DNA of 64,000 bases from Bacteroides sp. (GTDB lineage Bacteria; Bacteroidota; Bacteroidia; Bacteroidales; Muribaculaceae), in NCBI GenBank assembly GCA_023666835.1, contig JAMPBJ010000001.1:1055996-1119995 (forward strand). Reading direction: 5' to 3'. The translations under genes and the position numbers were made by a program. The notes under the pieces were generated by a model, which was not told the origin of the DNA, made no database searches, and worked only from the letters and a program-made list of their open reading frames with translations. This document shows, in pieces, positions 1,295 to 34,269 of the stretch. Numbering within the stretch: the stretch's first letter is position 1; every line of letters begins with the position of its first letter.

Positions 1295-1317
1295 AGAATC
1301 TCTCTCTGATTTGGGTG

Positions 1318-1387
1318 CAAAGTTACATCATTAGTCCCAATAAATCATCTCCCGGGGCTGATTTTTTCGATAATATGACTATATTTG
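1318..1387. promoter_or_regulatory. Divergent promoter region (two -7 boxes)
   Basis: On the minus strand TAACTTTG (1325-1318) faces the methyltransferase gene. On the plus strand TATATTTG (1380-1387) lies 22 bases before the ATG of the DUF5715 gene. Both fit the Bacteroidetes -7 consensus TAnnTTTG. Neither has a TTTG at the ideal 19-base spacing, so the -33 elements are weak. Confidence 0.55.
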
Positions 1388-1409
1388 CAATTGATTCATC
1401 ACAGACACA

Positions 1410-2174
1410 ATGAGATTTCCACTCTACATATTTCTATTGCTGCTTGCACTGACCACGTCATGCAGTCACAACGGCTCGGCCGATGCCGGCGAGCAAGAGC
1501 GCAGAGCGATCACGCTCGACGACATCGAACTGGATATAGACTCGACTGAAGGATTCGACAATCCGCTCAGCGAATTGCCCGAACCTACGGTGTCGATGCG
1601 CACCCGCAATATTGGCAATCTGGCCAAACTGTTCAACGACAGCAACTACGTGCACTGGGCCGACGCCGAGAAACTCGGCTTTGCGCCTCTGACCGACACA
1701 CGTTCGCACTGGAAGCTCGACGGGCGGTCGCTGGAGAAGGTGGTGCCATGCAAGGATTTTTATGTTGAACCCCTCACCTATTCACAGCCATATCTCGTGC
1801 CGCGTGCGGCCGCGATGCTTCATGAGATCGGCCGCCGCTTCAACGACAGCCTCGAGGTTCGCGGCGGCGGGGAATACCGCATAAAGGTGACAAGCGTGTT
1901 GCGCACACCCGAAAACGTGGCCCGGCTGCGCCGACGCAACCGCAATGCCATCGACTCGTCGGTGCATCAGCTGGGCACGACGTTCGACATCAGCTGGGCA
2001 CGTTTCGCCCCGTTCGGCACCTCGGTGCCCCGCTCGATGGTGGATCTGAAGTCGGTGCTTGCCGAAGTGCTTCTGGCCATGCGCCAGGAGGGTAAGATAT
2101 GGGTCAAATATGAGATCAAACAACCATGTTTCCACATCACGGCGCGTCCGCCGCAAAACAACACGGATAAATGA
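1410..2174 (+). CDS. DUF5715-type lipoprotein with M15/VanY-like peptidase fold
   Basis: A 254-aa protein that opens with a lipoprotein signal (hydrophobic stretch then LTTSCS, Cys about residue 18), so it is probably anchored in the outer or inner membrane facing the periplasm. The C-terminal half carries SSVHQLGTTFDISW, which matches the S-x-H-x-x-G-x-x-x-D zinc-binding pattern of M15/VanY D,D-carboxypeptidases. A final His sits in CFHITARPP near the C-terminus and could be the third ligand. Established knowledge: this arrangement is typical of DUF5715 proteins of Bacteroidetes, which are predicted peptidoglycan peptidases. Its last four bases overlap the start of the AsmA-like gene (ATGA), so the two are translationally coupled. 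Substrate unknown. Confidence 0.8.
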   Translation: MRFPLYIFLLLLALTTSCSHNGSADAGEQERRAITLDDIELDIDSTEGFDNPLSELPEPTVSMRTRNIGNLAKLFNDSNYVHWADAEKLGFAPLTDTRSHWKLDGRSLEKVVPCKDFYVEPLTYSQPYLVPRAAAMLHEIGRRFNDSLEVRGGGEYRIKVTSVLRTPENVARLRRRNRNAIDSSVHQLGTTFDISWARFAPFGTSVPRSMVDLKSVLAEVLLAMRQEGKIWVKYEIKQPCFHITARPPQNNTDK

Positions 2175-5100: not shown

Positions 5101-5680
5101 CGTGGCCAAATGGTTGCTGTTTAAAAACAAACAGCGCAACGTCATCGACAAAATGGACGTGGAGATCACCGTTCACGAAGGGTGGCTCGACCTCTATCCG
5201 GTGATATTCGACATGGACCGCTACCGGCTTGGAGTGGTGGGCAGCAACGACCTCAATTTCAACCTCGACTATCATGTGGCCGTGCTCAAATCGCCCATAC
5301 CGTTCAAGTTCGGCATCAACATCAAGGGCACGCCCGAGAAGATGAAAATACGTCTGGGCAAGGCGAAGATCAACGAAAAGAGTGTCGGGACGTCGCATCA
5401 TCTGACCGACTCGTTGCGTGTGAACCTGCTGCGCGAAATCGGCAAATCGTTCCGTCGCGGACTGCGTTCGGCAGGAGCCAAGGGGCTTAAGGTGCAAAGC
5501 GACCATCGCAACCCGTCGCAATCATCCGCGGCCGACGACACCGAACAATTCACCCCGGCCGATTCTGCCATACTCATTCGCGAAGGACTGATGGAAGCCC
5601 CCGCCGGCTACATCAGCCCCGAAGAACGCGAAGCCGCAGCGGCGGCCGCCAGCGACAAGAAAAAGAAGAAAAAGAAATGA
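2171..5680 (+). CDS. Large AsmA-family protein (inner-membrane-anchored, periplasmic)
   Basis: 1169 aa. A basic cytoplasmic stub (about residues 1-36) is followed by one transmembrane helix (about 37-57, GTVAGLLLLLALAVTVALWY) and a very long, beta-rich, repetitive periplasmic body. The opening of that body (ERLTGLVNKYGSDYLNADVHAGRVELTFWSTFPRF is the region, key residues 59-93) is the usual AsmA N-terminal signature. A conserved AsmA C-terminal block lies near residues 1000-1060. The protein ends in a run of seven lysines. AsmA-like proteins form bridge-like channels for phospholipid transport between inner and outer membranes; that role is inferred from family membership. It overlaps both neighbours by ATGA, making a coupled operon with the DUF5715 protein and the HAD hydrolase. 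Confidence 0.88.
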   Translation: MNEDDATPASVETDGTTEKKKRPLWRRILKWGLGTVAGLLLLLALAVTVALWYLTPERLTGLVNKYGSDYLNADVHAGRVELTFWSTFPRFNISVDNLTIVSHSLDRLPKAEKAALPADADSLLAVGHFSGGLHLLKLIEGKIDLYDLDLRDPKVNIFIVNDSINNFDIVPPSEETDTTETPLPEISVNHFALSGQMPVQLRMPADSIDCTLTLTRTNLKGTEAPAYTIGISGNTSAKMAGLAIPPVPFTLDGCIDWDQRKPSQIGLRDFRFTLLDIATQVTILLNFDDGLIVDSLHMAVEDFEPVRLLKFMPDSLLPDLSGLHTDLTMQTTARLTKPYRVGIDSLPSVDATLLARASQVKFEDLNLHYFDLDVRAHIDGDNLDQSTIDLRRLAANGHAMEMELKGTVVNPMSDPLVDGTFTGTLFIDRLPAKLLSQLPWKLEGTIKGNARARLRMSQLTPKLFHKVRLDGELQLDRFRAVARDGSMDAYVHHADMHLGSNSRISVGDKLVDSLLTTSLNIDTCALNAPGLELSGRRLAMNVGMRNTASSSDTTAINPVGGTISAGSLTLIADSGTTAMKLVDASIRATLRRFESKARAPQLDMQLEARRIGMRTADMGGVLIDGKADLTLHPRARRPMSARMQARIDSLAAIYPDLSTDSLTALARKQMRRRSNDTADDGRENIDFAIDNSLSSWLRLWQLSGNFTASVAGVYTPYYPTRNRFSDLNVEFSTDSVIVHEANLRSGLSDFHLEGSIRNIRRALTSKRHVPIELDFVLKSDTIDINDIMATVIRGSEYTGGGSSVDMQSLAESSVNAPAAATGADTDGPMGAFIVPSNVSANFRVEANRIHYGDLWLKDFNGTASMYDGTMALENLHALTDMGEVNMTALYSAPTARDISFAGGLNLRNLNLHEVLRQMPQIDSLMPMLHELEGMVDAQLAISTELDSLMNIRFSTLDMALRLSGKDLVLLDSETFRTVAKWLLFKNKQRNVIDKMDVEITVHEGWLDLYPVIFDMDRYRLGVVGSNDLNFNLDYHVAVLKSPIPFKFGINIKGTPEKMKIRLGKAKINEKSVGTSHHLTDSLRVNLLREIGKSFRRGLRSAGAKGLKVQSDHRNPSQSSAADDTEQFTPADSAILIREGLMEAPAGYISPEEREAAAAAASDKKKKKKK

Positions 5681-19838: not shown

Positions 19839-19858
19839 AAAACCCACAAGAGCGGGTT
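19836..19858 (-). terminator. Terminator of the tubulin-like operon
   Basis: Read on the minus strand, AACCC-N8-GGGTT is followed by a T-run (plus-strand A residues 19836-19842). It lies about 25 bases after the stop of the 842-aa gene and may also serve the convergent lipoprotein gene. Confidence 0.65.
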
Positions 19859-19883: not shown

Positions 19884-22412
19884 CTACGCGTCAATTTCAA
19901 CCACGGTGTCGAAATCCTGAATAGACTCATTGTCCTTGATGTGCCCCACCCGATAGCCATCGCCTGTGGTCTCGCAATAGAGATAGGTACGGCCATTGTA
20001 TTCCCTTGCAACGCGCTGAGGGTCGTCGGGCTTGATGACCGGCAACCAATCTGACTTGCCTTCCACACCGATGGCTGCATGCTTCAGTTTGGTCGAAAGC
20101 ATGATGATGACGTTATATCCCAACTCGTGAAGCAGAGCAGCCGTCAGCGACGATTTGCAGTCGCAATCTCCCTCTTTGTCGCATAGCACCTCGTCGGGGA
20201 AACGCATATATTCCTTTGCATAGCAGATGCCGGCGGAATGCTCATCAATGCAATAATTGATGTTGGGAGCCTGGCAAAAATCCAAAGCAAACTGCATCCG
20301 GTCGAGGTCGCCCAGACCGGCTTCGTCTATGCGCCGACTGATGTAGGAGGCTATTTCACGAACGGCCGACATGCGCTCTGCATCGGCGAGCAAGAAATCA
20401 AACATCTTGCGGATATTTTCATCGTAGGTGCTCGTGTTGGTGCTCAAGCAATAGTCCTTGAACGGATTGTTGGAGCGCAGATCGCTGATTTTGGCCTGGT
20501 CAAATTCGAGTGTATAGGAGCCATGCAATGAATTGCCTAATTCCGAATCGAGATCCCAGTTGTAGATACAGGTGATCGTGTCGTCGTTGGTGTCATCGAT
20601 ATCCTTTTCGATAAGCGGCAGTTCCACCTGTTCGTTGAAATCTTCGAAGCGCATTCCCTCCATTGTGCCGCCAATTCGGAATCCGTCGCTTGTGGTTTCG
20701 CAGAAAATGTATCGCTTGCCTCCATGCTCAAATGTGACATCATCGATGTTTTTTCCAAAGATGCTGTTGCCATCGATCCACTCTTTGTCGACTTCGATGC
20801 CAATGGCTCCATGGTGTTGAATGCTCGACACGAGATAGAGCACATTATGATTCATATAGTGGAACAACATGGCTGCCAGCAATGCTTTGCTGTTGCTGTC
20901 GGCCTCTTTGTCGTAGAACACTTCGTCGGGGAATCTGACATAGTCCTCATATTGGTTGATGGCTTTGCTGTCGCGGTTCATGCAGAAACGGATGTTTGGT
21001 TCCTGCACAAAATCGAGCGTAAACTGCAAGCTGTCTTCAACCGACAAGCCCTTTTGACGGGCGATTTTCTGTATCTGTGATGAGACGTATATCAGTCGGG
21101 CGGTGATACTCTTGTGCTCCTTCATGTAGTGGAACATGTCGAGCACCATGGCCTTAATAGGTTTGTCTTTGCGTTGACTATAGAATGGATTGACGTAGCG
21201 AAGATCGCTGATATATTGAGCGTCGAAGAAGAGCGTCAGCTCGCCGTCGACATCCTTGACGTTTTCCGAATCAAGCGACCATTTGAAGTTGCGGGTGATG
21301 TCGCCCGAGGGGTTTACGATTTCGTCATCATCATCCTCGTCGGTCGTTTCACCGGCATAAGGGTTCTTGATCTCCCATGGTGCGGAACTCGATCGAAGGG
21401 TCATGTTTATAATGACGGCAGTCATCAGCACTGTCGGAAGGGCTATGAAGTCGATGTTGTAGTACGTGCCGCAGAAGATCGTGGCCACGATACAACAAAG
21501 CACAATGGCCGTGTCGAAGCCGCGCTGTCCGAGAGTCTTGTTGAATAGGTCGATCTTGGGCTGAATGGTGTTGGAATTCTCCACACATTCTATCTTTATG
21601 GACCTGACGATGCCCCACAGAGCGAAATAGATGGCGTAGAGCGTGACAGGCTGAACGATGTCCTCCGAACCGAAAATGTAGCCGAAAATGTGGCGCCCAA
21701 AATACCAGGCCACAAAAAGGATGGCATAGATGAACGCTGACAACAAAGCGGTGTCCTTCCATCCATATGTGGGCGAGTTGTAGTATTCGCGATAATCCTT
21801 CTTGTTGTAAAGCGAGAAGAGTGTGGCGAATGCAGCTGCACGGGTCTCCGGGGGCATGGCATCGTGGGTCGACGAGTGAAAGCTACGGTGGCAACACACA
21901 GCTATGGGCTGACGCTTGCGGGCTTTGTCGTCGGGAATGCCACGATAGGCATTGATCGTACACTTTAGCCAAAGCGACCTCCAGGTGCGTTCGCCTGTGG
22001 CAGAGGGCTGAGCGGGATTCGATGGTTTGGCAGTGTAGCCTATTTTTTCAGGTTTTTTGTTCTTGCCGGCTTGTTTGAAAATATATCCCTCCTGGCTGAC
22101 ATAGCCGACCGTGCGGTATTGCGGCTTCACCGAATCGTCGGTGCCATCGGTGGTAAGGATCTCCACATATGCATTGTCGTCATTGTCGCCGATCTTTATG
22201 CGCCCGATTGCATGACCCTTTGCCTGACCCGACAAATGAACCTCGGGCACCTGATGGGGATCATTATCGTTCATATAACCTATGTTGACGAGCCCGGGGT
22301 TGCGTTTGGTGCGCGAATAGATCATCACCTTGACCCGAAGCAGGCGGCTGATGGCGGCAAGCAAGACAAGCGCCGACATTGCAAGGAGTATGTAAAGGAG
22401 CGTATTAGTCAT
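19884..22412 (-). CDS. Polytopic membrane protein with tandem transglutaminase-like domains (tubulin-like operon gene 4)
   Basis: 842 aa, the last gene of the operon. One N-terminal membrane helix (about residues 4-25), a soluble stretch to about 215, then several hydrophobic segments (about 222-345). Two homologous C-terminal domains (about 370-600 and 610-842) follow. Each contains the pattern (V/M)RFPDEV, then xDKE, a TGase-like helix, an HxAIG(I/V)E strand and Y-(I/L)-F/Y-CETT-x-DG-(F/Y)R(I/V)G. The second copy has GDCDCKSSLTAALLHELGY, a good match to the catalytic-Cys helix of transglutaminase-like enzymes, with a His (LKHAAIG) and an acidic residue (CETTGDG) for the triad. The first copy has ADSNSK in place of GDCDCK, so its nucleophile is lost. 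It may be a peptidase or crosslinking/amidase-type enzyme. The gene begins three bases after the upstream gene's stop. Confidence 0.75.
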   Translation of the reverse strand: MTNTLLYILLAMSALVLLAAISRLLRVKVMIYSRTKRNPGLVNIGYMNDNDPHQVPEVHLSGQAKGHAIGRIKIGDNDDNAYVEILTTDGTDDSVKPQYRTVGYVSQEGYIFKQAGKNKKPEKIGYTAKPSNPAQPSATGERTWRSLWLKCTINAYRGIPDDKARKRQPIAVCCHRSFHSSTHDAMPPETRAAAFATLFSLYNKKDYREYYNSPTYGWKDTALLSAFIYAILFVAWYFGRHIFGYIFGSEDIVQPVTLYAIYFALWGIVRSIKIECVENSNTIQPKIDLFNKTLGQRGFDTAIVLCCIVATIFCGTYYNIDFIALPTVLMTAVIINMTLRSSSAPWEIKNPYAGETTDEDDDDEIVNPSGDITRNFKWSLDSENVKDVDGELTLFFDAQYISDLRYVNPFYSQRKDKPIKAMVLDMFHYMKEHKSITARLIYVSSQIQKIARQKGLSVEDSLQFTLDFVQEPNIRFCMNRDSKAINQYEDYVRFPDEVFYDKEADSNSKALLAAMLFHYMNHNVLYLVSSIQHHGAIGIEVDKEWIDGNSIFGKNIDDVTFEHGGKRYIFCETTSDGFRIGGTMEGMRFEDFNEQVELPLIEKDIDDTNDDTITCIYNWDLDSELGNSLHGSYTLEFDQAKISDLRSNNPFKDYCLSTNTSTYDENIRKMFDFLLADAERMSAVREIASYISRRIDEAGLGDLDRMQFALDFCQAPNINYCIDEHSAGICYAKEYMRFPDEVLCDKEGDCDCKSSLTAALLHELGYNVIIMLSTKLKHAAIGVEGKSDWLPVIKPDDPQRVAREYNGRTYLYCETTGDGYRVGHIKDNESIQDFDTVVEIDA

Positions 22413-22415
22413 TGT

Positions 22416-25400
22416 TCAATCATCGACGTTCAGCACTTGGCGATACATGTTTTTATCATTAAAAGCCTCAGCAAAAAATTCAGAGTCAAAGAGTCGGAAC
22501 CATTCGGAGGAAGAGCCGTCGGGACAAAGCGCCCACAACAGCAATGAAGATATCTTGGGCGAGTATGGCGTGGATCCGTCATGTGGTTCAACTGCAGCCG
22601 GCGCGGTATTGACTGCAGATCGGTGCTTAAGCATATTCTTTTCCTTCTCTTTGAGCTCCGCCTCGTAGACACGCGTGCGACGAATTTTTTCATCAAAGTC
22701 TTCTGTGGGAAGGATTCGGTTGAGATTGAAAAGATCGAAGCAACGCCAGCGGGTGACAAATATGTATTTCCCGTATATTCGGTTGTATTTGTCGGTCTGC
22801 ATCTGGTTGTTGGCCGAGGAAACGAACGGCAGAATGTAGTTGACCACATTTTTATTGTTCATTTTCACATCAGTATATTCCATATCTGATGATGACGTCA
22901 CCTCGCCATTGGTCGCGGCATACTCGATCATCGGCTCAAGCACGCCGGCATTTCCATGGCTACGGACGCAGTAATGGTGAAGTTTTTCGCCTACGGTAGC
23001 ATCTTCGCGAGGAAGCAGAGCCTCAACTATTGCCTGCTGTAGATCGCTGTGGAACGTCTCCCTATGTTCGATCCACAAATCATCAAGTTCCCGCTCCTGT
23101 TGCTCCTTGGTCAGAAGTATTTCCTCTCCGTTGTCGTCGATGCGGCGTTCGAGATTTTCACACACCTTGACATCGCGAAACAGATCGGTCACTATATTGT
23201 GGTTCTGATTGATGAGCAGGAAGTATTCCACCTTGGTCAATTCGCTCAGCTTGTAGCGTATATAGTTGACAAGCACTTCGGCATCGTCAGATTCCTTTTC
23301 GGGCAGCAATGTGGCGTTGCCAAACCGTCCGGCGATCAACGGCTGGTTGAACATGGATTCGGGGAAAAGCGGTTTGCCGAGATCCTCTTCTGCAATGTCG
23401 CGTCCCACTTCCCTTCGAATATCTTCACACCGGGCTATGTAGCGGTCGGAAAGAGCTATCACTTTGTCATAGAAATTGACTATTTCCGACTCGATGCGAT
23501 TGGCCACCCTGGCATATGCATCGTGGAGATACATGGCCTGAAGATTGCTGATGGCCCGGTTTTTCTTTCGGTTGTAGCGCCACATCGTCAGCAATTCAAA
23601 TGCTGCCGGCACACAGAAAAGCCCGATGCTCCATAGGAGACTGTACTGCCTGACATCGCCGAGATCGATCACATGCGGCGAAAGAGCGTTGAGCATAGGC
23701 ACACCCGCTGCGGCACACATGATGCCGAGAATCACGCCACGACATATGCGGCTCAGAATTGTCGACTCCCGGCTAAGAATTCCATTCAATTCATTGACAG
23801 CCTGCTTTTTCATTTCAAGCTGTCGGGCACTGTTGTTTTTCAACCTGACATCGGCCACATAGGCCTCATGGTAGTCGATAAAGCGGTCGGTAACCGACGA
23901 AGGAATTCCCTCCTCGATCTTTCGCCAGAATTTCTGCTGAAGGACATCCTGGATCTCTGATTTGCGACTTGAGAGTTTGTCCTGCAACTCTTTGAAGGCA
24001 CGTATGATAGCCGGTATGCCCCCCTCGTTGGCACTGATGCTGCCCAACTCCTTGCGCAGACTGTCAAGAATGGTCTTCTGCGTGGTGATGTATTTCTCCT
24101 TGCACTTCACCGATATGGCTTCGAGCGATGCGCGCGTGCACCTTTGCATTTGGTCGACGATGCGTCTCATCATATTGGTGGTGAAGAACTTGAGATGGAG
24201 ATTGTAGTAATATCGTTTGAGATACTTTGCCAAGAAATTTTTGATGGGATGCGGCGACGGCTCTTCCTCTTCGATATCATCGTATTCAAGAGTGCCCAGT
24301 TGAGCCATATCAAAGAATGATTCGGGACTATAGTCGCTCTCCTTGATTATCTCCATACTCTTGCTCTCTTTACGATCGTCGCCCTCACTCTTGAGCGCGC
24401 GGATCATCTCCATGAAGATTTTACGCCTCCCCTTGTGGTCTTCGTTTTCCGTGTCGTAGTGTACGGAGGCACACCCCATAGAGAAATAGAAAACGTCGGC
24501 CGAGGCGGTTCCGCTCAGCAGGGGATGCGAATCGTTGCATGCAAGATAAAGATGCACAAGGCACTGCAAAAGATATTGCGCCAATTGCTCATCATTGAGA
24601 ATGCGATAGGAGCATTCGGTGCGGTTCTGAACATCCTGATAGAACATCATATGGTCGTAGCCACGAATGTCGTCGACTCGATACTGCACGTCGATTTCAG
24701 TCAGGGTGCGCTTCATGCTGCGACGCAGTCTCACTTCGCGGGTATTGATGTCGCTGGGGATATAGAGCATACCGATCACCTCCATGCCCTGATGGATATG
24801 ATGGGGCAACATACGCCCCTTCTCTTTCTGGAGAATAGCGGCTATCGAAGGGAACACGATGCGGGTGAACTCCTCAGACAAGTCGCCGAGTACCACCACA
24901 TTGATCTTGATATCGGGATGTGCATTGCTTGCCCTGAGGCGTCGGATAAATTTCTGGCCTTCCACCACCAGGTCGCTCTGAAACTTATAAAGTTTTTCGG
25001 CCGTGGTTCGAGCGCTATTATCCTCTGTAATGCGGTCGCGGATATGCTCCTCGTCATATTCTGCCTGGGTCTGCTCTGCATTGTCGCCGATAGTCACGCC
25101 ATAGAAGTAGTCCTGCATGCAACTGTACCACCAGTAGTCACCGATGACGATTGAGTTTTTGTCGGCGTTTTTCTGGTCGATCTGCTCGATCTGCTCATGG
25201 ATGGTCTGTTGCGACATCGACCCATTCACATCCGGATCAACAGCCTCAGCGTTTTGATCAGCATTTTCGTGATACTGGCCGGCGACGGCGGCATCCGACT
25301 CCGGAGCTCGTGAAGTCTCCTGTTGAATCGGGCATTCTCTGTTGATATGAACATGGTCAATCTGCCCGATGAGACGTTCGAAAATGTCCCGCCGGTCAGA

Positions 25401-25436
25401 TTTGTCCCTTAAGTCGATGATCCAGAGTGGAAGCAT
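22416..25436 (-). CDS. 1006-aa unrecognised protein with two central membrane segments (tubulin-like operon gene 3)
   Basis: I do not recognise this family. What can be seen: a soluble N-terminal domain (about residues 95-350) with alternating hydrophobic strands (INVVVLGDL, VIGMLYIPSD) that could be an alpha/beta fold; a long helical, coiled-coil-prone section (about 400-560); and two hydrophobic segments (about 566-585 and 598-618), compatible with a hairpin in the membrane. More charged helix follows (about 620-850), then a C-terminal globular region to 1006. The residues about 40-75 are acidic and low complexity. It sits nine bases after the tubulin-like gene and three before the transglutaminase-like gene, so it is probably a stoichiometric partner, perhaps the membrane anchor of the tubulin-like polymer. 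There are no obvious catalytic motifs. Confidence 0.7.
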   Translation of the reverse strand: MLPLWIIDLRDKSDRRDIFERLIGQIDHVHINRECPIQQETSRAPESDAAVAGQYHENADQNAEAVDPDVNGSMSQQTIHEQIEQIDQKNADKNSIVIGDYWWYSCMQDYFYGVTIGDNAEQTQAEYDEEHIRDRITEDNSARTTAEKLYKFQSDLVVEGQKFIRRLRASNAHPDIKINVVVLGDLSEEFTRIVFPSIAAILQKEKGRMLPHHIHQGMEVIGMLYIPSDINTREVRLRRSMKRTLTEIDVQYRVDDIRGYDHMMFYQDVQNRTECSYRILNDEQLAQYLLQCLVHLYLACNDSHPLLSGTASADVFYFSMGCASVHYDTENEDHKGRRKIFMEMIRALKSEGDDRKESKSMEIIKESDYSPESFFDMAQLGTLEYDDIEEEEPSPHPIKNFLAKYLKRYYYNLHLKFFTTNMMRRIVDQMQRCTRASLEAISVKCKEKYITTQKTILDSLRKELGSISANEGGIPAIIRAFKELQDKLSSRKSEIQDVLQQKFWRKIEEGIPSSVTDRFIDYHEAYVADVRLKNNSARQLEMKKQAVNELNGILSRESTILSRICRGVILGIMCAAAGVPMLNALSPHVIDLGDVRQYSLLWSIGLFCVPAAFELLTMWRYNRKKNRAISNLQAMYLHDAYARVANRIESEIVNFYDKVIALSDRYIARCEDIRREVGRDIAEEDLGKPLFPESMFNQPLIAGRFGNATLLPEKESDDAEVLVNYIRYKLSELTKVEYFLLINQNHNIVTDLFRDVKVCENLERRIDDNGEEILLTKEQQERELDDLWIEHRETFHSDLQQAIVEALLPREDATVGEKLHHYCVRSHGNAGVLEPMIEYAATNGEVTSSSDMEYTDVKMNNKNVVNYILPFVSSANNQMQTDKYNRIYGKYIFVTRWRCFDLFNLNRILPTEDFDEKIRRTRVYEAELKEKEKNMLKHRSAVNTAPAAVEPHDGSTPYSPKISSLLLWALCPDGSSSEWFRLFDSEFFAEAFNDKNMYRQVLNVDD

Positions 25437-25445
25437 GCCGAATTG

Positions 25446-28400
25446 CTACTTTTTAAAATCGTTGACAGTGGGATATTCTTCGCGAAGAATGTTGAAGAAG
25501 ATTCCATACAGACGTTTTTCCTCGGGAAGAGTGGCACGATGCTTTTTGTCGCTCAATTCGCGAAGGAGTTTGTCGGAGACAGCCGAATAGTTGTCCTTGA
25601 GTATTTTCTCACCCTTGATGGTGTTCTCGCCATCGGCTATATTGGTGCGGAGAATGGCCTGAATCAAGCGATCAGTCGTTTCGCCGAAGCGAGCGTTGTG
25701 GTACATATCCATGTATATATCGAAGCGATCGGCAAACGTCTTGCCCACAATTTCGTGGAAAAGATTGCGGCCGTCGGCTTCAGTGCGCAGACCGATCTTT
25801 CCTCCGGTGATGTCGGAATCGGTGACAAACGCCTCGGGCAGAGCGATCTTGAACGACTTGTCGTAGTCCGAATAGTACATCGTGTCGATATACGTGTTGT
25901 CGATATCGTATTCGTCCTTGAAGAACAATGGCGACAGCTGCCCGCGGAGTTCGCTGAGGATAAGCATCTTGACAAACGAGCGATGCTGCGGGAGCACCTC
26001 GTAGGGCAGGTTGTCGAGCGTCAGTTTGTCGAGATACTGTGCAAAATCGTGATGGAAGTGATATTTTTCGCGGAACGTGGCGCGGTCATACACTCGCTTG
26101 ATTGAGTCATAGATACGGTAGTCCTTGAGTGCAAGACCAAATTTAGATTTAAGCACGAGAGCAGTGTTTTCGTCGCCACTCTTTTCAAAGCGATGTTTGG
26201 TGTTGCCTTTCTGATAGCCGAGCATTTCAGCTGCCAGATCCTCACTACCGGCCACGAATATCACGTGTTCCTCTTTCTTGGTCACGTCGATGCGATTATT
26301 GTTATAGCTGAAGAAGAGAGCGGGATTCAGCGAACGGCGAACCTCGTCTTTTTCCTGATTGGTCAGGTCGGCAAAGAAAGTGGAGATCTTGCGGTTGTCC
26401 CACTGCTCCTGAATGAACTCATTGTTATGGAGTTTGTTTTCGAGAATTATTGTTGCCGTGGTCAGGAAATCTTCAATCACTTTCTCGGCACTGACATTGC
26501 CGCGGTCGACCAGCACAGGGTTGGCAAAATAGCGAGTGTCGATGCTCTTCTGAGGTTCATCGGAGTTGCGGTCGGTCTCTTTGTTTTCAAGGGCAACTTT
26601 ATACATCGGTTCCACCAGATCGTCGTCAGACGACAGATAGATATTCTGATCGAGGAATTTCATCAGATCGGGGCGTACGGGAGTTTCTTCCTCATCGTCC
26701 TCAGCCGTGATGACTTTGGTGTAGAGTTTGCTGAAGAAGTTGCCGTGTTTCCATCCGTTGCCATCGCAAATGGTCTTGAGCATGGGAAGGTAGACGGTGG
26801 TGACATCCATGGCGGTTTCTCCGAAATCGGTGGCCAGGCGTTTATAGTATTTGACTGCTTCGCGGTTGAGCTCTTCAGCCTTGGTGATCATGCTCGAGAT
26901 GTGACGTGCGAGTTTCGAAATCTCGTCATTTTTCTCGTCCATGCAGAAATCGCGTTTGATCTCGTGAGCCCATTTGGCCACCTGAAGATTGATAAAGTTC
27001 TGCACATAGGGATTCAGCGCATCGACATAAGCCTGAATCTGCTTGTGGTTGGTCTTAGTGATCTTTTCGGTTAGATCTATCTTGGCAGCGTCGTCGCTAA
27101 GCCTCTGCAGCTCCTCTTCCTGTTGTTTGAGAGCATTTTCGCGAGCACTGAGCGACTTGTTCGGATCCTGTTCCTCAAGGTTATACTCATCAAACATCAG
27201 CTTGTGGACTGCAATGAGAGCATTGTAGGTGTAAGCCAGACCACGCTCGCGGATGAGCTGTTCGGCCTGTTTCCACAATTGTCCGACGATAAGCTTTTTG
27301 TAGTGGGCTTTTCGTTCGTCTCTGCTCTCTTCCTTAAATTGGGTGGCCAGCTTGTTGAGATCCGATTTAATTTCCGCAAATTCACCGGCCTCCATCTTTT
27401 CGCTTTCAGTGTCGATGGAATCGATAGTGTTTTTAACGCTTTTGCCCACCTCGGCGAGATCGGCAGCTACAGAGTCGCTTGCCTGCGGATCAAGTTCGAC
27501 AAAAAGCTGACGGTAGAGCGGTGCCAGCTCCTCCTTGGCCACTTTGGCCTGACGCTTGTCGTTGCATAGCAGCCATGAACGCAACACGTCGCGGCGGAAG
27601 CGGGCGCGCATATATTTGGCAAACTGTTCCAGCGGTTTCTGAAGCGACACATAGCCCATAGGCACGAGGAATTCTTCGTGATTCTGCTCCATGATGTCGT
27701 TCATATAGTTGTCGATGTCACTACGGAAAGTTGCACCGGCCTGACCGTTGTGAAGATGGTAGAGCATCTCGGCAGTGTTGTGGCACATGGTGCTCGGGCT
27801 GCCGAGACTGGTGCCTTTATCGGTCTGGATGTCGACAGGTATCACATAGTAGAACGGGCAATAGCGTTTGGTACCGTCGACCAGATTGTAGTCGTCGTTG
27901 AACGCCAGTCGATGCATCACTGTCTTTTGACGTTCTTCGTAGCTCATCTTCTTGAATGCCTCAAGCTCGGTGAAGACGCCGAAAGCGTTCAGCGAATATT
28001 TCTCCTCCGTTGAGTTGGCGTCGATAAACACCTTGGGCATATAGAGCGTGTAGACGAGCTGCGGATCGCCGTTGCCCACAATCTGATGATGGAGCTGGTT
28101 GATATGATAGAGCACGTCGTTGAAGATGCCTGATCCTGTACCTCCAAGCGAACTGCTGACGAGCCAGTAGTAGATGATGCAGTCTTCTCCGCCAACGGTC
28201 TTCACATCGTTGAGCGACGATATGGCGGCCTGCAGCTTGCTCTGGAAATCGGCGAGCGAGTGGGCAAAGGCTATGCGCGATTTGATGCGGAACGCACCGG
28301 CACCAAACGAAAGCGGTTGGTCGGGAATCCTGTTGGACAACTCGGGCGAGCAGGCCTCGAGTATGCGCTTGTTGATCAGCGTCGACGGTTCGCGGCGTGC

Positions 28401-28697
28401 CTCATAGTAGATGGCCTGCGGATTGGCTCGGCCAAGATTGATCAGGTCGGTCTGCGGACTGATGAACGGCACTTTGCCATGTTCGAAACTTTCGCGGTTC
28501 TCCTTGTTGGCATTGTCGATGTCACGCTGGTCTGTGTCGATAAACAAAAACCGATAACTGTCATTCATTGCCTGCAGACGCGACTTTGATGCTGTCGCTT
28601 CAGGGAATCTTTTCTCATAGACCTTGGCCTTGATTTGCGCAACTGTCTTGACACCCTGACCTCCGATGCCTATAAATATATGCTTCTCGTTCGCCAT
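25446..28697 (-). CDS. Tubulin/FtsZ-superfamily protein (Tubulin_2/FtsZl-like), 1083 aa (operon gene 2)
   Basis: Begins MANEKHIFIGIGGQGVKT, a glycine-rich nucleotide-binding loop at residues 8-15 placed as in FtsZ. FLFIDTD follows at 50-56, where tubulin/FtsZ has the strand-3 Asp. The tubulin signature GGTGSG is at 185-190, in SSLGGTGSGIFNDVLYH. Established knowledge: large bacterial tubulin-like proteins (Pfam Tubulin_2, FtsZl-1 type) keep this GTPase core and have been proposed to act in membrane remodelling. After the GTPase part (about 1-420) comes a long charged helical region (about 430-660) and a C-terminal domain to 1083 that I cannot assign. No FtsZ-style C-terminal tail is visible. 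It follows the VWA gene by 21 bases. Whether it hydrolyses GTP or polymerises is inference. Confidence 0.85.
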   Translation of the reverse strand: MANEKHIFIGIGGQGVKTVAQIKAKVYEKRFPEATASKSRLQAMNDSYRFLFIDTDQRDIDNANKENRESFEHGKVPFISPQTDLINLGRANPQAIYYEARREPSTLINKRILEACSPELSNRIPDQPLSFGAGAFRIKSRIAFAHSLADFQSKLQAAISSLNDVKTVGGEDCIIYYWLVSSSLGGTGSGIFNDVLYHINQLHHQIVGNGDPQLVYTLYMPKVFIDANSTEEKYSLNAFGVFTELEAFKKMSYEERQKTVMHRLAFNDDYNLVDGTKRYCPFYYVIPVDIQTDKGTSLGSPSTMCHNTAEMLYHLHNGQAGATFRSDIDNYMNDIMEQNHEEFLVPMGYVSLQKPLEQFAKYMRARFRRDVLRSWLLCNDKRQAKVAKEELAPLYRQLFVELDPQASDSVAADLAEVGKSVKNTIDSIDTESEKMEAGEFAEIKSDLNKLATQFKEESRDERKAHYKKLIVGQLWKQAEQLIRERGLAYTYNALIAVHKLMFDEYNLEEQDPNKSLSARENALKQQEEELQRLSDDAAKIDLTEKITKTNHKQIQAYVDALNPYVQNFINLQVAKWAHEIKRDFCMDEKNDEISKLARHISSMITKAEELNREAVKYYKRLATDFGETAMDVTTVYLPMLKTICDGNGWKHGNFFSKLYTKVITAEDDEEETPVRPDLMKFLDQNIYLSSDDDLVEPMYKVALENKETDRNSDEPQKSIDTRYFANPVLVDRGNVSAEKVIEDFLTTATIILENKLHNNEFIQEQWDNRKISTFFADLTNQEKDEVRRSLNPALFFSYNNNRIDVTKKEEHVIFVAGSEDLAAEMLGYQKGNTKHRFEKSGDENTALVLKSKFGLALKDYRIYDSIKRVYDRATFREKYHFHHDFAQYLDKLTLDNLPYEVLPQHRSFVKMLILSELRGQLSPLFFKDEYDIDNTYIDTMYYSDYDKSFKIALPEAFVTDSDITGGKIGLRTEADGRNLFHEIVGKTFADRFDIYMDMYHNARFGETTDRLIQAILRTNIADGENTIKGEKILKDNYSAVSDKLLRELSDKKHRATLPEEKRLYGIFFNILREEYPTVNDFKK

Positions 28698-28718
28698 AAA
28701 AATTTGTGTTTTATTATA

Positions 28719-30362
28719 TTATTTTATTCTGATTTTCACGTTTTCGGTAATGTGCGAATCGTCGGATCCACATTCAAGATTTACAATCTTCGAAGTACCG
28801 GATTTGCCGTATCGTCCCAACAGACCGCGTTTACGCCGGCGTCCGTCGCGCACATAGCCACTGGTTCCGACCCACTCAAACGACGGACGTTTCCACGGCA
28901 GGAAAGGCGATGGTTTCTTCTTTGACACCTTGATGTTCCACTGCACACCGGGGAGATCGCAACCGTAGTTACCGGCCTGCCCGATGTTGAGTGTCTTAGA
29001 TGGACCTACTTTCACCATACCGCCGCCATTGATGACGCGACCGCGGTGATCCGTGAAATCCACTGTGCCGATGAAACGTTCCTTGTTGTTTCGTGCAATC
29101 GCTTTCATGACCAGGAAGAGATAGATGATCAGCAGTGCGAGCAGAGCAACGGTGAGCCAGAATGGCAAAATAAAGGTAAAAAGCCATCCGCTCTTTTGGT
29201 CGGATGTAGCCTGGATCGGTTTGTCGATGCTCAAGCGCTTGAGCTCGTCGTCATAGTCGGTTGGCGTCGAAAGTCCAAGATTGAGATTTTCATTGTAGCG
29301 GCGAAGTCCCCAGTTCTTATGCTTGAGTTTGCCGAGATCAAGCACCACGGCTGTGTCCTGTATCACTGTCGGGATGGCTTCGCCGTTGTAGAAAATGTAA
29401 TCCGAACCGGCATCGGTGTATACTGTGTCCAGTTTGATCGACTGATAGAGCTTATTGGGCTTCCAGTGTATTTCAGCCGTGGTGTTTCCATCGATATCGA
29501 TGTCGGTGGTAAAGGTAGGACGCAGATTGCGCTGATTGTCGAGCTGGATGACGGCGCGGAGCTTTTCGGTCATAATGTCGCGCGACAATTGGTCGAACCA
29601 GTGAGAGATGGCCGTGCGATCGTTGATAGCCTGAATGATATCGAATTTGCGTGTGATCGATGTGTTGTTGAATACATCCGACTGCAACTGGTCGAGGCAG
29701 AAACCGGCACCTGTGCCCGCCTTTGGAAGCTGCATAGCCACCACTCGGGTATAGGTGTTGTCGGTCACATTATTAAAGTCTTTGCTGAGCTTTTCGAGAT
29801 CGGCCGATGCCAGTTTTTGTTCGCCTTTACCGGGCAGATCGTTTAGGAAGTCGGTGATGATCACCACTACGTTCATCTGCACCTCTTGATTGTTGAGGAT
29901 GGTTTTGTTAATGGCCTCCACAGCTTTGTTGACATCGGTGTTGCGCTTGAACTCAGGAGTGTATCCATCGTTTTTGTATAGCGTCGACAGAGCGTTATAC
30001 AGCACCTGTTTTTGTGCATCGCCTTCGATCTTGGTGCACAATCCGGGAGTGTTTTCCTTTGCTTCAGTGCCAAACGGAATGACCGACACCTGTTCTCCGG
30101 CCGGGAGTGCCTGCGCAAATGCCTGCAATGCCGGGGTCACTATCTCATCGTATTTGACCATCGAGCCTGACACATCCACGGCAAAGATGTAGTGAGTGTG
30201 GCACTCCGACAATTCTTTGGAATATAGCTTGGTAAGTTTTGGGAATGTCTCTTGCAAATATGCCAGTGAGTTAGCCGTTTGTGCCGAAGCATTGATACAT
30301 ATAGTTGCAAGAATGGCGTAGAATAGGATTTTCGAAATCCGATTGATTCTATTTTCAGTCAT
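28719..30362 (-). CDS. VWA-domain protein with one membrane helix (tubulin-like operon gene 1)
   Basis: 547 aa. A signal peptide (cleavage near INASAQ, about residue 28) precedes a von Willebrand A domain with the metal-ion-dependent adhesion site: FAVDVSGSM (D63, S65, S67), a candidate Thr at about 142, and D171 in IITDFLND. Beta-rich sequence leads to one strong transmembrane helix (393-419). A cytoplasmic C-terminal domain (about 420-547) is beta-rich with a very basic patch (RDGRRRKRGLLGR). The topology therefore puts the VWA domain in the periplasm and the basic domain inside the cell, where the tubulin-like protein would be. Bacteroidetes VWA proteins often act in surface or membrane complexes. 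It is the first gene of the operon. A -7 box is at 30407-30400. Confidence 0.85.
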   Translation of the reverse strand: MTENRINRISKILFYAILATICINASAQTANSLAYLQETFPKLTKLYSKELSECHTHYIFAVDVSGSMVKYDEIVTPALQAFAQALPAGEQVSVIPFGTEAKENTPGLCTKIEGDAQKQVLYNALSTLYKNDGYTPEFKRNTDVNKAVEAINKTILNNQEVQMNVVVIITDFLNDLPGKGEQKLASADLEKLSKDFNNVTDNTYTRVVAMQLPKAGTGAGFCLDQLQSDVFNNTSITRKFDIIQAINDRTAISHWFDQLSRDIMTEKLRAVIQLDNQRNLRPTFTTDIDIDGNTTAEIHWKPNKLYQSIKLDTVYTDAGSDYIFYNGEAIPTVIQDTAVVLDLGKLKHKNWGLRRYNENLNLGLSTPTDYDDELKRLSIDKPIQATSDQKSGWLFTFILPFWLTVALLALLIIYLFLVMKAIARNNKERFIGTVDFTDHRGRVINGGGMVKVGPSKTLNIGQAGNYGCDLPGVQWNIKVSKKKPSPFLPWKRPSFEWVGTSGYVRDGRRRKRGLLGRYGKSGTSKIVNLECGSDDSHITENVKIRIK

Positions 30363-30399: not shown

Positions 30400-30407
30400 C
30401 AAATATA
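30400..30407 (-). promoter_or_regulatory. Putative -7 box of the tubulin-like operon
   Basis: TATATTTG on the minus strand, with predicted initiation about 30 bases before the VWA gene ATG. No TTTG lies at the ideal spacing. The rest of 30408-30580 is AT-rich with no gene seen. Confidence 0.5.
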
Positions 30408-30580: not shown

Positions 30581-30777
30581 ATGAACTCATTTAACTTTTT
30601 ATTTATTCACATTTTTAGGGATTTTTCGAGGCGATTTTCTCGATTGAAGAGGGAGCGTAGCGAGCTACGTGACCGATGAAATCAAGGAAAGCGGCCGAAA
30701 AAAGCCAAAAAGGTAAATAAAAGAATAGTCCGGAGTTCAAAATTTTGACATTCGGTAAAAAGTTTAAATGAGTTCAT
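30581..30777. repeat. 197-bp imperfect palindrome (long hairpin element)
   Basis: The outer arms ATGAACTCATTTAACTTTTT (30581-30600) and its near-perfect inverse (30757-30777, one extra base) enclose a second weaker inverted pairing: TTTATTTA / TAAATAAA, ATTTTTCG / CGAAAAAA, and GATTGAAG / GAAATCAA regions. The apex AGCGTAGCGAGCTACG is itself hairpin-forming. It may be a MITE-like element or a long structured RNA. It lies between the divergent VWA and LRR genes, and its right edge supplies the ATG of a spurious upstream reading of the LRR gene. Confidence 0.6.
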
Positions 30778-30986
30778 TGGATGACGGTCAATCCGATACC
30801 GACCGAAGTTATTTTTTATTTATTGTTTCAAAAAAGTCTCTTAATTGTTTTTTACTCCTTCATCACACTTCCCCTCTTCTCATCTCCGACTCCCGTCTCG
30901 CTCCTATTCATCACTCTGACAATTCATCACATTCCACGCCGACGGCGGTCACAAACTCTAATAGTTCATCTTTAAGTTTCAAAAAA

Positions 30987-33038
30987 ATGGTAGGAACAAA
31001 ATCTCTGCAATCCTTGCGGATCAGGATGGCCGCAATTGCATTTTCGACCCTTTTTGCTGCTACAGCACAGACAATCACAGTCAACGAACTGACCTACAGC
31101 CTCAACCCGACCGACAAGACGGCCACCGTAGTCACAGCCACAGTGCCAACGACGGGCACAGTCGCGATCGAAGTGCCGGCAACGGTCACCGCCGACGATG
31201 GCGATGTCTACGCAGTCACTGCCATTGGCGACAGTGCCTTCTACCAAATGAAAACCATCACCGCAATCACCTTGCCCGAAGGCATCGAAACAATCGGTGT
31301 AGAGGCGTTTTCCGAACTCACAAAACTTTCGATTATCAATATTCCCTCTACGGTAACAAAAATCGATGATTATGCCTTCTACGATTGCTCGTCGATTGTG
31401 AATCTGCAACTGCCCGACAATCTGAAATATCTCGGCGAAGGTGCTTTCTACTACTGTTCAAAACTTGATTCGATGCCTATTCCAGAAAGCGTTGAACACT
31501 TGGGCATGGGCGTCTTCTACTGGTGTTCGATGCTGAGAAAGTCTTCAATTCCAAAACACATTAAAGATATCCCCTCACATCTCTTCCGCTATTGCAATAT
31601 TTTGGAACCACCGGAACTCCCCGAAGGTCTAAGAACAATCGGTCAATATGCATTTTGTGCTGTGGATTTCGTGGATCTTGACATTCCCGAAACTGTTACT
31701 TCAATAGGTGCCGGAGCTTTCGGTTGGTGTGATAAGTTGGTAAAAGTGCATCTGCCTGAAGGTTTGGAGGTCATTGACAGCTATGCATTTACAATATGTG
31801 GCAACTTGGAAGAGATCAATATACCCTCTACTGTGACAGCAATCGGAATTCAGACATTTGCAGGTGATCCCAAACTCAAAACCATCGTACTTCCCTCCGG
31901 AATCAAAGAACTTTATAAACAATGCTTTGCCGGTTGCACTTCACTGACAAACATAACCCTCCCAAGCTCTTTAACAAAAGTATACACCAGCGCATTTCAA
32001 GACTGCACCGGTCTGAAATCCGTTAAAATTTGCGATTCACCGGAGACTCTCGACATAGCCACGAATGCATTCCCGAGCAATTATATGACAGAACTGTATA
32101 TCGGCCGCAATCTGACAGCTTTTCTAAAAACCGGCAACAAACTCAAATCGTTGACCTTGGGCAATTATGTCACTGAAATCCCTGCCTCGGCGTTCAAAAA
32201 CCACACTTCTCTTACCAGCGTACGCATAGGCCGTTCGCTCGAAGCCATCCCCGCTGAAGCATTTGCTTCATGTGCTCTGACCGAAATCGTCATCCCATCT
32301 TCCGTTCAGACCATCGGTGAAAATGCATTTGCTTCCAATCCTCTGACCAACGTGATCATAGGTCACGGCCTTAAACAGATCAGCGCAAACGCCTTTGCCA
32401 ACTGCAACGACATCCGCTCGATCTACTGCACTGCCGAAGAAACTCCCGTGGTGGAAGAAAACTCTTTCAGCATCACAGACGGCTCGCTGTTTGTCACCGA
32501 CGCTGCCATCGACGCCTACTCAACCTCAGCCATCCACTGGAACATGCTGACTCCCTACACGCTCGTGGAACCTGAAGAGATAGCCATGAACCGTGACGGC
32601 GAATCCGGCATTGAACTTCTGTCAGACGATCCCTCAACTCCCACCACGTTCCAACTGACCGCAACTATCACCCCTTACGACGTATCGCTTCCCCACATCT
32701 ACTGGATGTCGTCGAATCCGCAGGCTGCCACTGTCGACCTCGACGGATTGGTTACGGTCCACGATCCCAACGGATCATATTCGATCACCGCCCATTCGCT
32801 CTACAACGACAAATTGCTTGCAAAGATGGACTTCACTGAAGGCACAATGGGCATTGAGGATCTGATCGCCGATGAACCGGCATTCGGCATTGTCGACGAA
32901 TCAGGCAACATAAAGGCAGACAACAATATCTACAACATCCAGGGGATGCTCATAAAGAAAAACGCCACCGAAGCCGACATCCGGTCGCTACCGTCGGGAT
33001 TTTACATCGTAGGCGGTCAAAAACTGTTTGTGAAATAA
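30987..33038 (+). CDS. BspA-like leucine-rich repeat surface protein
   Basis: 683 aa from the ATG at 30987, preceded by an A-rich stretch. A longer open frame to 30768 lacks a signal peptide and overlaps the palindrome, so I rejected it. The signal peptide ends near FAATAQ. Residues about 60-500 are tandem LRR_5/BspA-type repeats of about 22-23 aa, of the form A-F-x-x-C-x-x-L-x-x-I-x-I-P-x-x-V-x-x-I (for example AFYDCSSIVNLQLPDNLKYL). A Big2-like Ig domain (about 540-620, WMSSNPQAATVDLDGLVTV) follows. The short C-terminal module YNIQGMLI...LPSGFYIVGGQKLFVK resembles Bacteroidetes secretion/anchoring tails. It is probably exported to the surface and binds host or microbial ligands. The middle repeats are more AT-rich than the ends. 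Confidence 0.9.
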   Translation: MVGTKSLQSLRIRMAAIAFSTLFAATAQTITVNELTYSLNPTDKTATVVTATVPTTGTVAIEVPATVTADDGDVYAVTAIGDSAFYQMKTITAITLPEGIETIGVEAFSELTKLSIINIPSTVTKIDDYAFYDCSSIVNLQLPDNLKYLGEGAFYYCSKLDSMPIPESVEHLGMGVFYWCSMLRKSSIPKHIKDIPSHLFRYCNILEPPELPEGLRTIGQYAFCAVDFVDLDIPETVTSIGAGAFGWCDKLVKVHLPEGLEVIDSYAFTICGNLEEINIPSTVTAIGIQTFAGDPKLKTIVLPSGIKELYKQCFAGCTSLTNITLPSSLTKVYTSAFQDCTGLKSVKICDSPETLDIATNAFPSNYMTELYIGRNLTAFLKTGNKLKSLTLGNYVTEIPASAFKNHTSLTSVRIGRSLEAIPAEAFASCALTEIVIPSSVQTIGENAFASNPLTNVIIGHGLKQISANAFANCNDIRSIYCTAEETPVVEENSFSITDGSLFVTDAAIDAYSTSAIHWNMLTPYTLVEPEEIAMNRDGESGIELLSDDPSTPTTFQLTATITPYDVSLPHIYWMSSNPQAATVDLDGLVTVHDPNGSYSITAHSLYNDKLLAKMDFTEGTMGIEDLIADEPAFGIVDESGNIKADNNIYNIQGMLIKKNATEADIRSLPSGFYIVGGQKLFVK

Positions 33039-33980: not shown

Positions 33981-34136
33981 GGTTGGAAGAATTTAAGAAT
34001 GGGTAATGATTGGTGATTTTTTCGGAACATAGCGATATGCTAAGTCGCTTATTTGCAAATATAGAACATTCCTCGAACTTTTACCCCCCCCGAACTGTTA
34101 AAAATGTTTAATCCACTCACGGCCGGACACAAAAAA

Positions 34137-34233
34137 GGGTAAGCTGACTACATCGCACCGCTACAACCCGGTACCGTTGCTTCGATCAAGACCTGGCGGA
34201 GTTTCCGGGGAGCTGGTCGTGTAGGACTTACCC
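34137..34233 (-). ncRNA. ffs: Signal recognition particle RNA, small (4.5S) type
   Basis: 97 nt. The ends pair (GGGTAAG / CTTACCC). The conserved SRP core GCCAGGTC...CGAAGCAACGG is present, followed by the 3' strand GCGATGTAG, which corresponds to GGAUGUAG of E. coli 4.5S RNA. A run of six T follows directly on this strand (34136-34131), giving a terminator. The apical loop between AGGTC and GAAGCA reads TTGATC rather than the common CGGAAG. The promoter at 34239-34269 predicts a start at the first G. Confidence 0.9.
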
Positions 34234-34238
34234 GACCG

Positions 34239-34269
34239 CAAAGTTACAACTTTTCCATGATTCTCCAAA
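34239..34269 (-). promoter_or_regulatory. SRP RNA promoter
   Basis: Minus strand TTTG (34269-34266), exactly 19 bases, TAACTTTG (34246-34239). The last base of the -7 box is six bases before the RNA 5' end, which anchors the promoter geometry used elsewhere in this annotation. Confidence 0.85.

Follow-up and report, generated by a model that had tools for sequence, protein, structure and literature searches.

What could require a large tubulin-like GTPase to be made together with a VWA (von Willebrand factor A) protein and two membrane proteins? The question is raised by a four-gene operon in a 64,000-nucleotide stretch of DNA, called the window below, from Bacteroides sp. of the Muribaculaceae (assembly GCA_023666835.1, contig JAMPBJ010000001.1, forward-strand positions 1,055,996 to 1,119,995; the source genome amounts to 1.79 Mb in 11 contigs and is 79% complete). 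In order, the genes encode the VWA protein (gene 1), the GTPase (gene 2, TUB), a hairpin-anchored protein (gene 3, G3) and a transglutaminase-like (TG) membrane protein (gene 4, TGL). Our answer, tentative and in our estimate close to evenly balanced, is that they would form a machine of the FtsZl1/Tubulin_2 class that sits at the membrane, is driven by GTP and has proteolysis as its output. A peptidase output is proposed because unrelated peptidases recur in related units and because candidate peptidase sites show inverse conservation.

Four genes inherited as one unit

The four genes are one co-inherited unit. They are minus-strand open reading frames (ORFs) spanning 19884-30362, and the gaps of 21, 9 and 3 bases reported in an initial annotation, made from the letters alone, were confirmed by the ORF coordinates. 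That annotation had made its proposal depend on the genes recurring together in the same order, and they do. Two short conserved patterns, run against 84,980 species genomes and so yielding a lower bound, returned at least 30 loci (L numbers below; G numbers denote genomes), all in metagenome-assembled genomes titled Bacteroidia or families within it and many from rumen or faeces. TUB, G3 and TGL are consecutive in 30/30 loci; the VWA gene lies upstream in 29 (27 whole, two truncated at a contig end), and in the remaining one the contig opens immediately ahead of TUB. Over 26 shared rows, the pairwise distances in any one of the four proteins correlate with those in the others (r 0.86-0.97). 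Within the family, 4 of 247 genomes (the source genome included) have a TUB of at least 54% identity, the same four have G3, and all four hold the order VWA-TUB-G3-TGL; partial TUB matches of 24-28% identity in seven further genomes belong to other Tubulin_2 families. L039, a near-copy of L038 in the same assembly, was used neither in alignments A5-A8 and A10 nor in the tree or the Fisher test described below; L035, L055 and L057 were also dropped from A7, and L035, L036 and L057 from A8. L033, L052 and L053 were taken as the same contigs as G226, G141 and G055.

The neighbours of the operon vary between loci, some being common to near relatives. In the window it sits behind a tRNA-Ser and an endonuclease/exonuclease/phosphatase-family gene. 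The latter was matched in 20 same-genus genomes, and in the seven relatives' loci examined, with up to 1.5 kb on each side, the operon was not found; three of the seven retain the tRNA-Ser. The absence of the operon beside the same gene in relatives therefore suggests that the window copy is an accessory insertion. No mobile element belonging to the operon itself was identified. TUB had no match in plasmid and phage records and no pattern match in viral contigs, G3 had none in plasmid records, and in 295 genomes of the order the G3 profile found its own protein and one marginal hit (E 7e-4, ∼ 60 positions).

Gene 2 matches Pfam Tubulin_2 (PF13809; E 9.4e-35, residues 7-372), the only such match in the source genome (124 bits). 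It has the GIGGQG and GGTGSG motifs; G10, G12, G13, G15 and the entire GGTGSG are invariant in 30 aligned rows, window included. The first 360 residues are best conserved, with a mean column identity of 0.83-0.90 in 60-residue bins, and residues 361-600 least (0.49-0.60), which is compatible with the extended coiled coil that precedes an alpha-helical C-terminal domain in FtsZl1. Hydropathy gave no transmembrane (TM) segment. Two marks of the FtsZl1/Tubulin_2 class are present, namely an N-terminal FtsZ-like nucleotide domain with T1 and the GG(G)TG(S/T)G motif, and a VWA gene in the operon at 29 of 30 loci, the remaining locus ending at the contig edge. In gene 1, Pfam and hydropathy delimit a signal-like segment (residues 9-27), a VWA domain (∼ 58-260), a TM segment (401-419) and a basic C-terminal domain; D63, V64, S65, M68, T142 and D171, which include the residues of the metal ion-dependent adhesion site (MIDAS), are unchanged across 27 aligned rows. 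Judged from flanking charges, the VWA domain would be periplasmic and the basic tail cytoplasmic. G3 consists of an N-terminal region (1-345), a TM hairpin (560-618, segments 560-578 and 600-618) and a C-terminal domain, both large domains being predicted by the same charge rule to be cytoplasmic; Pfam gave no match at E ≤ 1.

Gene 4 has hydrophobic segments at residues 4-22, 221-239, 302-320 and 320-338 and, by eye, a fifth near 255-271. Pfam identifies a DUF553 transglutaminase-like domain (E 7.8e-6, residues 716-781), and the protein in fact bears two tandem TG domains, which the initial annotation had overlooked; charge rules suggest that they face the cytoplasm. Domain 1 reads ADSNSK and lacks the canonical Cys, as opposed to GDCDCK in domain 2. 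G748-D-C750-D-C752, H778 and E814 of domain 2 are unchanged in the four closest operons, GDC stands in all 17 second domains, and the alignment shows HAA[IV]-like and CETT-like segments. Domain 2 may hold a Cys-His-Asp/Glu cysteine peptidase site, and we take the domain to belong to the papain-like fold class. The GDC..H..E order is that of bacterial transglutaminase-like proteins (DUF553, Transglut_core); unlike the usual members, TGL has tandem domains, the first of them degenerate, and four or five TM segments, and it stands in a tubulin operon. Sequence searches of the PDB with G3, TUB and TGL profiles gave no meaningful match. The initial annotation had assigned gene 2 a tubulin/FtsZ-superfamily core, gene 1 a periplasmic VWA metal site with a basic cytoplasmic domain, genes 3 and 4 membrane segments, and gene 4 a cysteine-hydrolase-like character. 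These assignments are supported by the Tubulin_2 match with its invariant nucleotide motifs, the MIDAS residues with hydropathy and flanking charges, the hydropathy of both membrane proteins, and the DUF553 match with GDC..H..E, respectively.

Peptidase-like partners and third proteins in related operons

In 22 of the 30 scanned loci TGL is followed by a fifth gene (∼ 340 residues), which the window operon does not have. Its product has a hydrophobic segment in the N-terminal part, and in intact copies an HExxH motif precedes a WxxEG(I/L/V)A segment. HExxH and the downstream Glu are complete in 13 of the 22 proteins and degenerate in 9. The state of this metal site runs inversely to the number of TG domains. 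Counting that of the window, there are 31 operons. TGL has two TG domains in 17 of them (L035 is counted here although its TGL falls in two ORFs), and all 17 keep GDC in the C-terminal domain; 11 of these loci have the fifth gene, its metal site being degenerate in 9 (8/10 without the near-duplicate L039). The other 14 operons have a single TG domain, which has lost the canonical Cys in 12, most of these keeping a second Cys two residues on; the fifth gene is present in 11 and its metal site intact in 11/11. With L039 left out, Fisher's test gives p 2e-4.

Tubulin_2 matches at E ≤ 0.001 were found in 10/296 genomes of the phylum, 14/295 of the order and 42/247 of the family; 34 of the 42 lie over the Pfam cut-off, and the weak ones include FtsZ-sized proteins. 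Leaving out weak FtsZ-sized matches, we examined 40 other Tubulin_2 loci in addition to L151 and L152. Twelve of the 40 (type B) encode a TUB of ∼ 928-973 residues and then a ∼ 1100-residue third protein that includes a papain C1 domain: Pfam gave E 1e-13 and 1e-15 for the two proteins tested, and all 12 have the N[SG]WG motif. A VWA-cluster gene lies upstream in 11 of the 12, as two ORFs in L117 and L133 and, in L026, with a VWA_2 score below the Pfam cut-off. The type B third proteins that were checked have a TM hairpin (L026) or one segment (L133). Profile comparison with hhalign relates type B to the window at both TUB (97.8%) and the VWA region (95.5%). No similarity was found between the papain protein and TGL, and homology of the two was rejected. 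Type C operons (17 of the 40) encode proteins of ∼ 190 residues, TUB, ∼ 220 and ∼ 380 residues and further genes; this third kind of operon, with L024, L130 and L134 as examples, occurs in Muribaculaceae and elsewhere and can run to 7-9 genes, which belong to lineage-specific families.

The window order recurs in G765, a relative at phylum level, as VWA (VWA_2 E 2.5e-16), Tubulin_2 (E 6.5e-33), a 722-residue protein and a 343-residue TG-like membrane protein, the last scoring 40 bits against the TGL profile of the window family (E 4e-14, seven operon proteins searched). In the order of G765, Tubulin_2 at E ≤ 0.001 occurs in 3 of 98 genomes. In G823, VWA, TUB and the third protein come, in this order, after a fragment resembling Peptidase MA, whose E of 0.002 is below cut-off. 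Two side observations belong here. A Tubulin_2 operon in L136 encodes a 1278-residue protein (70-3903, minus strand) with a LIM-like Cys cluster and HExxH..EGHA (Pfam DUF6782, putative metallopeptidase, E 0.008), which by eye we presume to be DA1-like. Upstream of the VWA gene in L037, L038, L039, L050 and L056 (and, by size, L034) lies a protein of ∼ 296-298 residues, possibly a further component; five are related by comparison, two of them near-copies.

The third protein of one relative, G843, is itself Tubulin_2-like by Pfam (E 1.5e-9, over cut-off), with TM segments at 596-642, and its homologue in G877 scores weakly (E 0.016). Combined into a profile (T3), the two proteins match the papain protein of type B at 96.6% (E 6e-10) and the TUB of that type at 90% (E 1.4e-6). 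We compared full-length G3 with T3, type B TUB, pooled type B plus T3, and the third protein of L139, and obtained E values of 0.0017-0.0067 at hhalign probabilities of 6-15%; the scores (32-42) exceed the maxima of 22-27 from 12 column shuffles each, and unrelated profiles gave E 0.056-0.45. The matches are collinear over ∼ 300 and 436 columns in two of the four profiles, and three of the four bring the FSMG segment into register. Tubulin kinship is opposed by five other third-protein lineages, which gave E 0.18-0.58, and the best pooled match spans just 38 C-terminal columns. That G3 is a degenerate, membrane-anchored tubulin relative is thus suggestive only. The reading of G3 as a paralogue of the window TUB was rejected: direct hhalign comparison found nothing, nor did a comparison of N-terminal parts alone. 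A wider search for third proteins of the L152 type gave one marginal hit in 197 genomes, and none was found in plasmids.

Further relatives came from plasmids. A tblastn search with the G843 TUB hit 13 plasmid records, of which seven were opened. Plasmids of Thermus oshimai, Meiothermus taiwanensis and Allomeiothermus silvanus carry vWA, tubulin-like, hypothetical (∼ 680 residues) and brxL genes in this order, with an insertion sequence element before brxL in A. silvanus; in T. thermophilus SNM3-3 what is left is the third gene, brxL and a fragment similar to TUB in its C-terminal part. Neighbouring genes are HmaABC in M. taiwanensis, type I-C cas in T. thermophilus, and helicase and methylase genes. 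The Thermaceae third proteins have no TM segment at the threshold used and no significant match to G3. Records from Azospirillum, Deinococcus (two) and Cylindrospermopsis show other partners, brxL being absent from the stretch shown. The vWA-tubulin-third-brxL set of the Thermaceae plasmids (L154-L156, L159-L161 and L164) is possibly an undescribed defence-associated system; the vWA, tubulin and third proteins of M. taiwanensis match no PADLOC family at E ≤ 1e-5.

What the operon may do

We propose that the VWA domain binds an envelope ligand or a damaged protein and that its cytoplasmic tail, together with G3, would start or cap a tubulin-like polymer at the inner membrane. As the polymer assembles with GTP, the peptidase would be clustered and activated, and it could then cut cytoplasmic or membrane substrates. 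The initial annotation had pictured a trans-envelope machine in which a tubulin polymer is coupled to a sensor and a hydrolase effector; the data are consistent with that picture, which the varying peptidases would make more specific.

Operons of FtsZl1 and VWA genes with membrane proteins were described in 2010 (Makarova and Koonin; PMC2875224). As far as the available parts of that paper go, the window operon shares with them the large tubulin-superfamily GTPase, the MIDAS-type VWA gene found in most operons, and membrane proteins; Bacteroides caccae is among the species aligned there. The kinases, P-loop GTPase and OmpA proteins listed for those systems were not found by Pfam in the window's four genes. 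'Transglutaminase' has no occurrence in the text, and its available parts, without supplements, name neither a papain or metallopeptidase partner nor a tubulin-like membrane-anchored one. Tubulin and vWA neighbourhoods have also been termed GTPase-centric conflict systems (Kaur et al., 2020; PMC7159879, in the parts available). The likeness to the GAP1-N2 systems of that paper lies in a tubulin with a C-terminal coiled coil or helical domain, a candidate feature of TUB, and a membrane vWA protein with an extracellular VWA domain; those of Firmicutes have two tubulin genes. At the core of GAP1-N2 systems are a TRAFAC GTPase and GAP1, and their tubulin theme is given for Firmicutes and Actinobacteria only. 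Pfam matched neither TRAFAC GTPase nor GAP1 at E ≤ 1 in the four genes of the operon, no GTPase is among the 25 Pfam families listed (of 118) for the flanks of 28 loci, and the window operon, unlike GAP1-N2 systems, has a peptidase-like protein. MoxR-vWA ternary systems, in the same parts of PMC7159879, link vWA to peptidase effectors, as is proposed here. The BrxL that follows the vWA-tubulin-third genes in Thermaceae plasmids recalls BREX and BREX-related systems (PMC12839542, seen in part), in which text neither tubulin nor FtsZ occurs. For genes 1 to 4 Pfam gave neither an ATPase of this kind nor a PglZ or BrxC-like domain, which sets the operon apart from MoxR-vWA and BREX systems.

What is new relative to the FtsZl1 and VWA operons, as judged by sequence, is the recurring but varying peptidase: TG-like, HExxH in the fifth gene, or papain in the third protein. 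Also new are the third protein of one relative, itself Tubulin_2-like, the same four-gene order in one distant genome and the Thermaceae vWA-tubulin-third-BrxL arrangement. No transglutaminase-like, papain or HExxH partner of a tubulin is mentioned in the available parts of PMC2875224 and PMC7159879, supplements excluded, nor is a tubulin/VWA/transglutaminase operon named in the titles and abstract openings of the literature searched.

Several findings weigh against proteolysis as the output and against parts of the machine as proposed. Among them are Pfam scores below cut-off and a failed test of G3: the fifth gene reaches E 0.001 (DUF2268) in one of three proteins scanned, the TG-like protein of G765 gives E 0.0017 for Transglut_core and 0.002 for DUF553, and the N-terminal part of G3 alone, at hhalign E 0.025-0.11, lends no support to tubulin kinship. 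Individual loci count against the proposal as well. The two-domain loci L036 and L051 retain an intact fifth-gene metal site; L045 and L046 have no Cys at either of the candidate TG positions; the near-identical single-domain loci L054 and L057 have no canonical TG Cys and no adjoining same-strand fifth gene; and L030 combines a single TG domain reading ADC with a DNA/RNA non-specific endonuclease as the next gene. The pattern rests on few independent changes because the single-domain loci except L030 form one clade in the TUB tree, which shows five changes for three states, and the Fisher p ignores kinship. The 17 type C loci yielded no peptidase motif by the patterns used, bar a loose TG-pattern hit in L022. 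BrxL is AAA+/Lon-like, and proteolysis is not established for it.

Three other functions were weighed. One is an antiphage or cell-suicide system, in which VWA sensing of the envelope or of infection, together with tubulin assembly, would release a peptidase to kill or arrest the cell, as proposed for MoxR-vWA and GAP1-N2 GTPase/tubulin systems. In its favour, the distribution is sparse, TUB of at least 54% identity and G3 occurring in 4/247 family genomes; the gene that borders the operon here is without it, over the flanks covered, in the loci of seven relatives (three with tRNA-Ser); the Thermaceae relatives lie on plasmids, with HmaABC, type I-C cas, helicase and methylase genes nearby; and tubulin and vWA neighbourhoods are termed conflict systems in PMC7159879. 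On the other side, the window's four proteins gave nothing meaningful in PADLOC (the sole hit being gene 2 to ZorA, E 0.8), no plasmid or phage record matches TUB, no plasmid record matches G3, and a defence-island setting was not supported. The 127 flanking proteins of 28 loci of the window's type (type A; L039 and L057 left out of the 30) matched 21 PADLOC families, mostly by one or two proteins each; several are housekeeping-like (sigma factor-like MzaA, DndA, SspA, GlgB), and TIR-like (ThsB1) and SAVED-like hits are single. A defence role, which the initial annotation had allowed for, is thus possible, with distant Thermaceae relatives beside defence genes in its favour and the flanks of the operon's own family against it; as the system's main function we rate it somewhat unlikely.

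Membrane remodelling, or vesicle formation, is what Makarova and Koonin (PMC2875224) proposed for FtsZl1 from operons that also encode VWA and membrane proteins. The polymer would bend or organise the inner membrane, and the TG and metallo domains would be structural or would process components of the machine. Three of the four proteins carry membrane segments, and TG domain 1 and 9/22 HExxH sites are degenerate, as binding modules would be; the recurring unrelated peptidase domains and the inverse conservation favour catalysis as the selected output, and we consider remodelling unlikely. A phage-independent envelope quality control, with the VWA domain recognising misfolded periplasmic proteins and the cytoplasmic peptidase cutting a regulator, would suit both a place on the chromosome amid ordinary genes (in the window, neighbours with IF-2, NusA, Tex and cytochrome bd domains) and the description of vWA domains as peptide-binding in the available parts of PMC7159879. 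So rare and patchy a distribution is unusual for a housekeeping stress system, and the conserved gene set holds no regulator gene; this explanation, too, appears improbable. A bolder combination, which we think unlikely, is a bacterial counterpart of the inflammasome: with a VWA protein in control as periplasmic sensor, an active tubulin GTPase would assemble together with a degenerate, membrane-anchored tubulin partner, and the two would switch on one of several exchangeable proteases (transglutaminase-like, papain, HExxH or Lon-like). In Bacteroidota and Deinococcota alike, this would serve immunity or cell suicide.

The reading that we prefer, a GTP-driven machine with proteolysis as its output, bears on a family whose function was guessed from gene context in 2010: the varying peptidases would give FtsZl1/Tubulin_2 a concrete output, protein cleavage. 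If G3 is a tubulin relative, the two-tubulin system would resemble a heteropolymer. If the reading is correct, membrane proteolysis gated by a signal would join cytoskeleton and plasmid partition among the roles of tubulins.

Feature coordinates and surroundings

Table 1. Features of the operon in the window (position 1 is the first base of the 64,000).
Feature	Coordinates	Strand	Basis
Gene 1, VWA protein	28719..30362	-	ORF, 547 residues; Pfam VWA_2 E 2.1e-8; hydropathy; 27-row alignment
MIDAS motif DVSGSM, gene 1 residues 63-68	30159..30176	-	sequence, alignment
Gene 2 (TUB), Tubulin_2/FtsZl1 GTPase	25446..28697	-	ORF, 1083 residues; Pfam Tubulin_2 E 9.4e-35
Tubulin_2 domain, gene 2 residues 7-372	27582..28679	-	Pfam; conservation profile
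GGTGSG (T4) motif, gene 2 residues 185-190	28128..28145	-	G185-G190 invariant, 30 rows
Gene 3 (G3), hairpin-anchored protein	22416..25436	-	ORF, 1006 residues; hydropathy
Gene 4 (TGL), two-TG-domain membrane protein	19884..22412	-	ORF, 842 residues; Pfam DUF553 E 7.8e-6; alignments; hydropathy
First TG domain, ADS replacing GDC, residues 504-506, probably degenerate	20895..20903	-	alignment
GDCDC of second TG domain, residues 748-752, presumed nucleophile region	20157..20171	-	in 17/17 two-domain proteins, window included
-7 box TATATTTG, presumably Bacteroidales-type, upstream of gene 1	30400..30407	-	sequence; consensus
Hairpin and T run 3' of gene 4, likely terminator	19841..19858	-	

The initial annotation had also placed a -7 box before the operon and a terminator behind it. 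The box is seen at 30407-30400 (TATATTTG, which we take to be of the Bacteroidales type). A hairpin with a T run is likewise present after gene 4, but terminator-like hits over the region (10) do not exceed the mean of 11.3 in shuffled sequences.

Between gene 1 and a divergent leucine-rich-repeat gene lies a 193-bp element (30583-30775, plus strand) that resembles a miniature inverted-repeat transposable element, with inverted ends recognised by eye. The genome holds seven full or near-full-length copies of 87-100% identity, that of the window included, and partial ones. The neighbouring gene (30768-33038, plus strand) encodes a BspA-type leucine-rich-repeat protein with a Big_2 domain, and its listed start at 30768 falls within the element. 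A 1169-residue ORF at 2171-5677 (plus strand) has no Pfam match at E ≤ 1e-5, and a Bacteroidales small signal recognition particle RNA (RF04183, 102.5 bits) occupies 34133-34240 on the minus strand.

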